Part shown: positions 48,013-52,722 of the stretch, in pieces
Position numbering within the stretch: the first letter of the stretch is position 1
Layout of the letters: every line of letters begins with the position of its first letter
Assembly: GCA_900258555.1 (NCBI GenBank)
Contig: LT984857.1
Coordinates: 121,768-185,767 of the forward strand
Source of the DNA: an uncultured Desulfobacterium sp.
GTDB taxonomy: Bacteria; Desulfobacterota; DSM-4660; Desulfatiglandales; Desulfatiglandaceae
Reading direction: 5' to 3'
DNA length: 64,000 nt
Notes under the pieces: generated by a model
Databases searched by the model: none
What the model was told of the DNA's origin: nothing
Seen by the model: the letters and a program-made list of their open reading frames with translations, nothing else
Translations under genes and position numbers: made by a program

Positions 48013-48630
48013 ATGAAAAAATACCTTTTTATTGCGCTGGCCTTAATATCTCTTAATTCATTTGCTTTTGCCGGAGGAGATCAAAACCAAAACCAATATG
48101 ATGGCTCATTAGGCCAAGGTCCTACTTATCAGGAACGAAATGACAATCTAACCTTAGATGCCCTGAAAGTGACACAACTCGATGAAAATCAAAAATTAAT
48201 TATTTACAGTATTTATGAAGAAGAAAAGGTAGCAAGAGATGTTTATATCACATTAGGAAACTTGTATCCTGAAGAAACCACATTTGCAAATATTCAATTA
48301 GCCGAGCAGACCCATATGGATGCAGTGAGAAGGCTGTGCGTTAAGTATGGCATTGAGATACCGGATGTTGATCAAGCCGTTGGTGTATTTAATTTACTTG
48401 CCATGAGTGATTTATATGAGGGCTTTATAGATGCTGGGGATGATTCACTGTCAAGCGCATTACAGGTGGGAATAGACATTGAAACAATGGACATAGCGGA
48501 CTTGGGAGAGGTGCTGGAATACCAGAACATGCCGAGAGATGTTCAACGGGTTCTCACTAATTTGATAAGTGGAAGCATTAGTCATTTAGATGCATTTACA
48601 ACTGCCTTGGAAAGAGAAAATATTCAGTGA
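48013..48630 (+). CDS. DUF2202 ferritin-like exported protein
   Basis: A 205-aa protein with a signal peptide (KKYLFIALALISLNSFAFAG) and a DUF2202 domain: IYEEEKVARDVYITLGNLYP, AEQTHMDAVRRL, LISGSISHLDAF. The Glu/His pattern suggests a ferritin-like helical bundle that may bind metal. A ribosome site AGGGAGGG precedes the ATG. It stands alone with its own terminator; the 225-bp upstream gap may hold its promoter. Confidence 0.9.
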   Translation: MKKYLFIALALISLNSFAFAGGDQNQNQYDGSLGQGPTYQERNDNLTLDALKVTQLDENQKLIIYSIYEEEKVARDVYITLGNLYPEETTFANIQLAEQTHMDAVRRLCVKYGIEIPDVDQAVGVFNLLAMSDLYEGFIDAGDDSLSSALQVGIDIETMDIADLGEVLEYQNMPRDVQRVLTNLISGSISHLDAFTTALERENIQ

Positions 48631-51123: not shown

Positions 51124-51315
51124 TTATGTTTTTTCCTTTTCGTGATCTGTCTTTTCCTTCATCAACCTCGCCCGATGGATCTCTTCCAGAAACTTTCTTA
51201 CCCTTACAAAATCTTCAAATGTCAAAAGGGTGTAAGGGTTGCGGTTGAGCAATTTTTGGTAATCATCTTTTGCCTTTTTGTACTTGTGCAAGTCAACCAG
51301 TTTTTCCGTCATCAC
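51124..51315 (-). CDS. Small unknown protein upstream of aroE
   Basis: A 63-aa charged helical protein (MTEKLVDLHKYKKAKDDYQK, LLTFEDFVRVRKFLEEIH). The stop abuts the aroE start, so it is the first gene of the aro operon. Function not recognised. Confidence 0.6.
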   Translation of the reverse strand: MMTEKLVDLHKYKKAKDDYQKLLNRNPYTLLTFEDFVRVRKFLEEIHRARLMKEKTDHEKEKT

Positions 51316-51517
51316 TTCCTCTTCCCTGGATAAAGTGATCAGGTCATATAATCCTTTACTCAGACAATATTAGTATAGCATATTATAGTGTCTCTGGACA
51401 GAGTTAACTGACCAAAGGAAAGACAAATATCGCTCTGGATGGAAGTTGGCCCAAACTGAAAAAAGGAATGGAAAAGGATAAAAAATAAGCAGGACGCCTG
51501 TTTTCCCCGGCCCTGCG

Positions 51518-51545
51518 AAAATAAAAGGCCTGTATTACAGGCCTT
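51518..51545 (-). terminator. Terminator after the 42-aa membrane peptide gene
   Basis: AAGGCCTGTA (51525-51534) and TACAGGCCTT (51536-51545) form a perfect 10-bp stem; on the minus strand TTTTATTTT follows. The stem starts immediately behind the stop codon. Confidence 0.75.
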
Positions 51546-51547
51546 AC

Positions 51548-51676
51548 TTAGAACGAAATATGTGGAAGGACATAAACCTTGAAAAGGACAGAAACTGCAA
51601 ATATGGAAACGGCCCAGGCTCCGAGCGCTATAATAAGATCTATCAATTCCCTTGCACCCTGAGAATCTTGTCCCAT
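51548..51676 (-). CDS. Small single-pass membrane peptide (42 aa)
   Basis: A 42-codon gene, MGQDSQGARELIDLIIALGA, WAVSIFAVSVLFKVYV, ending LPHISF. One membrane helix of about 21 residues follows an amphipathic start. It has an excellent ribosome site (GGAGGTAGCC) 5 bp before the ATG and a strong terminator behind, and stands alone. This full set argues for a genuine gene. It could be a small subunit of a membrane complex or a regulator; no family recognised. Confidence 0.7.
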   Translation of the reverse strand: MGQDSQGARELIDLIIALGAWAVSIFAVSVLFKVYVLPHISF

Positions 51677-51833
51677 TGGCTACCTCCATGACGGAAAAAA
51701 TGAAGGTGAATAAGGTAAATTTTTTTATTGGCTAATTTTATTGACAACATTTGGATTGTCAACAAAAAATTGGCTCAAGATGCATGGTTATCTCTGATAG
51801 TTTGACACAATATATTGATTTTCAGGACAAATT

Positions 51834-52469
51834 ATGCACATTTTATTTTTCTTAAAAGGGGCTACCTTGGCCATCTATGCTGCTGTAATGCCCGGCCCTT
51901 TTCAGGCGTATCTGCTTTCTCAATCTCTGAAAAACGGTTGGAGAGAAAGCCTGCCATTGGCCTTAACACCCATCCTTACGGACGGACCGATCATTATCCT
52001 GGTCTTGTTTATCCTGACCCGAATACCCCAGATCATTTTAGAAACCTTAAGCGTCCTGGGGGGTCTTTTTATCCTTTATCTGGCAAGGGCTATATTGCTG
52101 AGCCTGAAACAGCCCTTCCCGGTGATAGGACCGTCTGCGTCAACAAAGGCAAAGGGGTTTGGAAATGCTGTTATACTGAACATATTGAACCCCAACCCTT
52201 ATATATTCTGGGGTGTTGTCTCAGGGCCGATCTTTCTTGCTGCCTGGAGGCAGGCGCCTTATTTAGGGGTCAGCTTTTTAATCGGTTTTTATGGGATACT
52301 AATATTGAGTCTTGCCGCCCTGATTGTCCTTTTTGCAACAATCGGGGGCATTAATACAGGGGTAAACCGCGTAGTCAACATCATTGCGTGCTGCGCCCTG
52401 ATTCTCTTCGGCGCATATCAGTGCCTGGCAGGGTTGATAACCCTGGGATCACGCATTTCTTTCAATTGA
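51834..52469 (+). CDS. LysE/RhtB-family translocator
   Basis: A 211-aa membrane protein with six or so hydrophobic segments and the family motif YAAVMPGPFQAYLLSQSLKN, then LTPILTDGP and LNPNPYIFW. LysE-type exporters release amino acids or similar solutes; the substrate is not indicated. Confidence 0.88.
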   Translation: MHILFFLKGATLAIYAAVMPGPFQAYLLSQSLKNGWRESLPLALTPILTDGPIIILVLFILTRIPQIILETLSVLGGLFILYLARAILLSLKQPFPVIGPSASTKAKGFGNAVILNILNPNPYIFWGVVSGPIFLAAWRQAPYLGVSFLIGFYGILILSLAALIVLFATIGGINTGVNRVVNIIACCALILFGAYQCLAGLITLGSRISFN

Positions 52470-52521: not shown

Positions 52522-52722
52522 ATGTCCATTCGTTTGATAGCAAAAGAAATATACCGTCTGAGACAGCAGGTGGAAGGGTTTGAAGAGCAGCTAAAAAATA
52601 CCCCCCCTGAAAAAAGGCAATGGTTGGAAGATAAGCTTAGGGAACAGAGAGCAGAGTTAACAAAGATGCAGAGGATGCTGGACGGAGCGAAGGAGCCGTC
52701 GCCATATAAAAAACCTCGTTAG
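52522..52722 (+). CDS. Small coiled-coil protein (66 aa)
   Basis: A 66-aa protein, MSIRLIAKEIYRLRQQVEGF and EDKLREQRAELTKMQRMLDG, almost entirely coiled coil. The start follows AACCAGGAGGAAAATAAA; an upstream frame start at 52474 is less likely. Unknown role. Confidence 0.65.
   Translation: MSIRLIAKEIYRLRQQVEGFEEQLKNTPPEKRQWLEDKLREQRAELTKMQRMLDGAKEPSPYKKPR

Follow-up and report, generated by a model that had tools for sequence, protein, structure and literature searches.

A probable gene for a lineage-restricted, 42-residue membrane protein in an uncultured Desulfobacterium

Small membrane proteins are easily missed. Among those that have been described in Escherichia coli, KdpF is a small single-helix accessory protein encoded within the operon of its client, and Pfam has models for KdpF as well as for AcrZ and CydX. 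Type I toxins, for example Hok, TisB, Ldr and Fst, form another group against which a short hydrophobic peptide can be compared. CydX is a small single-helix accessory protein that is mostly encoded in the operon of its client, with a few orphan exceptions (PMC4325964), and AcrZ is likewise a small single-helix accessory protein (PMC7267776). Our literature searches on sulfate reducers or their phylum gave no title on small proteins or small open reading frames (ORFs). Here we describe such an ORF in a stretch of 64,000 nucleotides of contig LT984857.1 (hereafter the window), which belongs to the genome of an uncultured Desulfobacterium sp. (G000; 5.43 Mb, 98.9% complete).

The ORF, its signals and its surroundings

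The features of the locus are as follows.

51548–51676, minus strand: ORF of 42 amino acids, stop included in the coordinates, encoding MGQDSQGARELIDLIIALGAWAVSIFAVSVLFKVYVLPHISF, with a single predicted membrane helix at about residues 11–33
51683–51687, minus strand: ribosome-binding site GGAGG, 6 nt 5' of the ATG
51735–51762, minus strand: sigma-70-like promoter TTGACA-16-TAAAAT, matching 11 of 12 consensus positions
51525–51545, minus strand: terminator-like hairpin of 9 pairs followed by TTATTTT, from a terminator scan
51834–52469, plus strand: divergent neighbour, a LysE-type exporter gene (Pfam LysE, E 1.2e-13), in the same place in the congener
51124–51315, minus strand: downstream 63-residue ORF, followed by aroE and aroK, with the order of the 63-residue ORF and aroE kept in the congener

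The strong ribosome site that the first-pass annotation had pointed out is the GGAGG at 51687–51683, 6 nt from the ATG, and GGGAGGTAG is found before the orthologue too in our two-species comparison. The promoter at 51762–51735 on the minus strand does not appear in that annotation. It is one of four promoter-like sites returned by a promoter scan, against 1.5 expected; in the congener, where both hexamers and the spacing are identical, it is the sole site found by the same scan. An operator-like inverted repeat, TTGACAATCCAAATGTTGTCAA, at 51741–51762 spans the −35 region of this promoter, and its right half is not conserved in the congener. At the other end of the gene, the annotated span of 51518–51676 correctly takes in the ORF together with a terminator placed directly behind it. 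The hairpin of nine pairs with its T-rich tail does stand there (51545–51525), but the scan found one such element against a mean of 0.8 in shuffled sequences, which alone is not above chance. The congener has a GGCCTG/CAGGCC stem at this position from which the T-run is absent, and the same scan finds no terminator there.

Two predictions agree with the earlier description of a single clean membrane helix. The best 19-residue hydropathy mean is 2.49, starting at residue 14, and the AlphaFold2 model consists of one helix from residue 3 to 41 with a mean pLDDT of 86.9, so that one hydrophobic membrane helix is predicted. From the acidic N-terminal tail (Asp4, Glu10 and Asp13) and the Lys33 and His39 residues at the C-terminal end, we favor an orientation with the N terminus outside and the C terminus inside. 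The positions that vary between species lean weakly to one face of the helix, with a p value of 0.02 for residues 8–37 and of 0.07, 0.12 and 0.27 for the three other ranges.

Downstream, the 63-residue ORF has a 62-residue counterpart in the congener that is 66% identical. It matches no curated family above cut-off in Pfam or NCBIfam, and it is possibly another easily missed small protein gene. Upstream of it and of aroE lies a block on the minus strand at about 51370–51401 that contains a TATAAT box; 26 of its 30 alignment columns are identical to the congener in a stretch that is otherwise poorly conserved. The aroE operon probably has its promoter in this block. Because a separate conserved TATAAT-box block thus precedes the 63-residue ORF, the peptide gene is most simply read as monocistronic, and we saw no operon partner for it among its neighbors (LysE, the 63-residue ORF and aroE). 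A functional tie to LysE or aroE was considered and rejected: we scanned the loci of LysE relatives in all 12 other genomes with a match and of aroE relatives in 28 of the 34 other genomes with a match, and among the small hydrophobic ORFs found there behind a ribosome site, none was peptide-like by eye.

Other features of the surroundings were recorded in passing. The aroE of this genus is 38–48% identical to aroE matches elsewhere in the family, whose scanned flanks lack the peptide; this locus may thus differ in its history between this genus and the others. After LysE, at 52522–52722 on the plus strand, an ORF for a coiled-coil-like protein of 66 residues is preceded by AGGAGG and has sub-threshold family matches only. 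The ORF at 48013–48630, also on the plus strand, encodes a DUF2202 protein (Pfam E 6.7e-32), the N terminus of which resembles a signal peptide.

Conservation and distribution

The comparison on which the coding assignment rests comprises two sequences, that of G000 and that of one congener, Desulfobacteraceae bacterium UBA5623 (contig DIKH01000323.1). The UBA5623 orthologue is also 42 residues long, is identical at 34 of 42 positions and has the same neighbors. At the DNA level, the ORF is identical at 110/129 positions and the flanking sequence at 230/402 (Fisher p 2e-9), and all 11 gap columns of the alignment lie outside the ORF. Of the 18 changes in 42 codons, 4 affect the first, 3 the second and 11 the third codon position (binomial p 0.014), with a dN of 0.093 and a dS of 0.427 by the NG86 method (dN/dS about 0.22). 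When the same substitutions were placed at random, an equal amino acid identity together with an open frame was obtained in 0.57% of 20000 trials. Counting the stop, the sense frame keeps 35 of 43 positions, whereas the five other frames keep 28–29 of 42–43; one frame on the opposite strand is open in both species. The dS of the ORF (0.43) is lower than that of its neighbors by the same method (LysE, 0.93; aroE, 1.16; the 63-residue ORF, 2.02), and it is therefore possible that part of the DNA conservation serves a non-protein role or reflects small-sample luck.

The ORF, which is shorter than about 60 residues, thus has its start, stop and ribosome site conserved between the two species. The first-pass annotation had taken it for a real and easily missed gene for a small membrane protein, to be checked by its conservation without a frame break in relatives. 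In the single close relative compared, this check is passed, with start, stop, length, frame, ribosome site and promoter all kept. From these sequence data, we conclude that the ORF at 51548–51676 is very probably a genuine gene.

Beyond the congener, the peptide is rare. In its own genome, the DNA search and the protein search each give a single match. The peptide, or a profile built from the two sequences, is matched strongly in 2 of 99 relatives, 2 of 85 genomes of the order and 1 of 395 genomes in a phylum sample, where the one match is the genome itself and the congener is not among the matches. Pattern searches whose reach is limited to close relatives find one locus in genome contigs and no peptide match in viral contigs. 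Plasmids give one match at E 8 and phages five at E 2–3; with nothing better than these and no viral-contig locus, an origin from a mobile element was rejected. Searches of PHROGs and PADLOC give no match at E ≤ 10, and Rfam gives none at E ≤ 1. The only Pfam match at E ≤ 1 is CARD (E 0.27, under its cut-off) and the only NCBIfam match is FimV_Cterm (E 0.074), whose 13.1 bits fall short of the cut-off of 30.65. We judged both CARD and a match to PEX14 in the PDB (E 0.016) to be chance matches. As far as is visible from such searches, the peptide appears to be an orphan of one genus; for a protein this short, they could overlook more distant homologues.

Interpretations of the peptide

We consider it reasonably likely that the locus is a single-gene transcription unit for a lineage-restricted, single-pass small protein of the inner membrane that packs against a larger membrane protein. 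Transcription would start at about 51728, so that the leader would measure some 50 nt; the peptide would insert uncleaved as one helix. By analogy with AcrZ, KdpF and CydX, this helix would pack sideways on the larger protein and adjust how stable or active that protein is. A gene that appears to be monocistronic does not require its partner to be encoded next to it. The first-pass annotation had suggested that the peptide may be a complex subunit or a membrane-stress regulator; neither a family match nor an operon partner was found that would point to one of these roles.

A short peptide with a single helix and its own promoter and terminator would also fit a type I-like toxin, which an antisense RNA normally keeps from being translated and which depolarizes the membrane once released. 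We regard this as unlikely. On the other strand, a weak promoter-like site (51361–51389, 9/12) is directed into the gene, but it is not found in the congener by the same scan, and although the congener mRNA folds better than shuffled sequences (z −2.39), the leader (z −0.99) and mRNA (z −0.62) of the window do not. The gene is furthermore present in single copy at the same locus in both species; phages and plasmids offer nothing better than E 2, PHROGs and PADLOC are blank at E ≤ 10, and Pfam contributes only the chance-level CARD match (E 0.27). The good folding of the congener transcript also speaks for the proposal that it is a regulatory RNA or leader that keeps the DNA conserved and that the ORF is incidental, as do the low dS relative to the neighbors and the opposite-strand frame that is open in both species. 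This too seems unlikely to us, given that the sense frame keeps 35 of 43 positions against 28–29 of 42–43 in the other five, that Rfam has no match at E ≤ 1 and that the window transcript shows no unusual folding.

The sole functional lead, and one that we treat as a lead only, is a sequence resemblance to the last helix of DsrP, termed TMH B, which would make the peptide a derived copy or mimic of that helix that binds the DsrMKJOP complex. Among the 99 relatives, 23 have weak matches to the peptide (E 0.006–0.1 per genome), and every one of these lies in the terminal helix of a DsrP-like protein. Of 16 weak places in the phylum sample, 11 lie in this helix (best E 2.4e-4) and five elsewhere. 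In the search of the order, one of 12 weak places (G081) is a different, permease-like protein. We also built a profile from 29 DsrP tails that had been picked for their likeness to the DsrP of this genome and not by the peptide. It scores the two peptides at 20.8 and 15.7 bits, and 0 and 1 of 5000 shuffles are as good, a count that is not a probability because DsrP had already been singled out as the best-matching family in a proteome. One of the initial 30 tails (L125) had been dropped before the profile was built, as it introduced a long gap in the alignment and its frame was probably wrongly picked. With tails selected by their match to the peptide, plus that of its own genome, hhalign gives a probability of 95.8%, and a reverse search gives E values of 3.1e-4 and 0.049. 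The reversed peptide matches fewer genomes than the forward one (4/99 compared with 23/99).

The controls are nevertheless divided on this resemblance. In the same 99 genomes, the best E value of the reversed peptide (0.0037) is lower than that of the best DsrP match (0.006), and four of its five places lie in other NrfD-family proteins, which suggests that NrfD-family helices catch such sequences by chance; the remaining place is interrupted by three stops within 90 codons and is apparently non-coding. Because DsrP is conserved, the 23 matching genomes are close to a single draw. In an unbiased reverse search with the 29 tails, the window peptide is found in its own genome at E 0.013, but the congener peptide is not listed at E ≤ 0.2. 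The genome's own protein, identified as DsrP by NCBIfam (E 2.8e-146, above cut-off), keeps its last helix, does not reach the E 0.1 match level and is encoded on another contig. We give little credence to a derived copy or mimic of the DsrP helix. Least probable of all, in our view, is the more specific proposal that the terminal part of a dsrP-like gene gave rise to a detached NrfD-type TMH B, now an independently regulated single-helix subunit or inhibitor, which would dock at the TMH B site of DsrMKJOP or Qrc and adjust quinone-linked electron flow in sulfate reduction.

Genes for subunits of both complexes are present in the genome. On contig C1, dsrJ, dsrO and dsrP of DsrMKJOP lie together (L083), all three above their NCBIfam cut-offs. 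About 1.3 kb past the right end of the window (L084; G000:C4:187098-188027) is a gene for QrcD (NCBIfam E 6.4e-196, above cut-off), the membrane subunit of the menaquinone reductase Qrc, with an iron–sulfur protein gene just before it; the QrcD gene is about 14 kb from that of the peptide. In published structural models, TMH B sits at the periphery of NrfD-like subunits and is left out of PsrC (PMC8076601). We also considered whether the peptide replaces a missing NrfD helix and rejected the idea: a PF03916 search at E ≤ 0.01 gives two proteins, DsrP and QrcD, and each of them has a C-terminal hydrophobic helix by eye.

Comparison with known systems

To judge by its sequence, the gene is a well-delimited orphan, with a promoter and a ribosome site, that is probably translated. 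If its partner were a respiratory complex, sulfate respiration would be subject to a previously unrecognized point of control.

Among the systems compared, type I toxins share with the peptide its short length, hydrophobic single helix and own promoter. The peptide gene differs from them in being single-copy, in that the scan finds no antisense promoter common to both species and in matching no curated family. The likeness to DsrP TMH B amounts to 29–50% identity over about 24 residues among the weak matches in relatives, and to 13/24 for the best match of the phylum sample (L087), counted by eye. The pattern E/D...G.WA...F....L.K is common to both, and the two helices would share the same orientation, with the C-terminal end inside. 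In contrast to TMH B, the peptide is the product of a standalone 42-residue gene, has another C-terminal tail and coexists with an intact DsrP, and its best E value is no better than that of the reversed-sequence control in the same genomes.

AcrZ, KdpF and CydX are of the same size class and likewise consist of one hydrophobic helix. The peptide matches none of these families (Pfam, E ≤ 1; NCBIfam, above cut-off), and in contrast to the client-operon location of CydX and KdpF, its gene stands alone beside LysE, the 63-residue ORF and aroE. By analogy with these three proteins, the peptide probably serves a larger membrane protein as an accessory helix; its kind, a small single-pass membrane protein, is ordinary, and the member is new.
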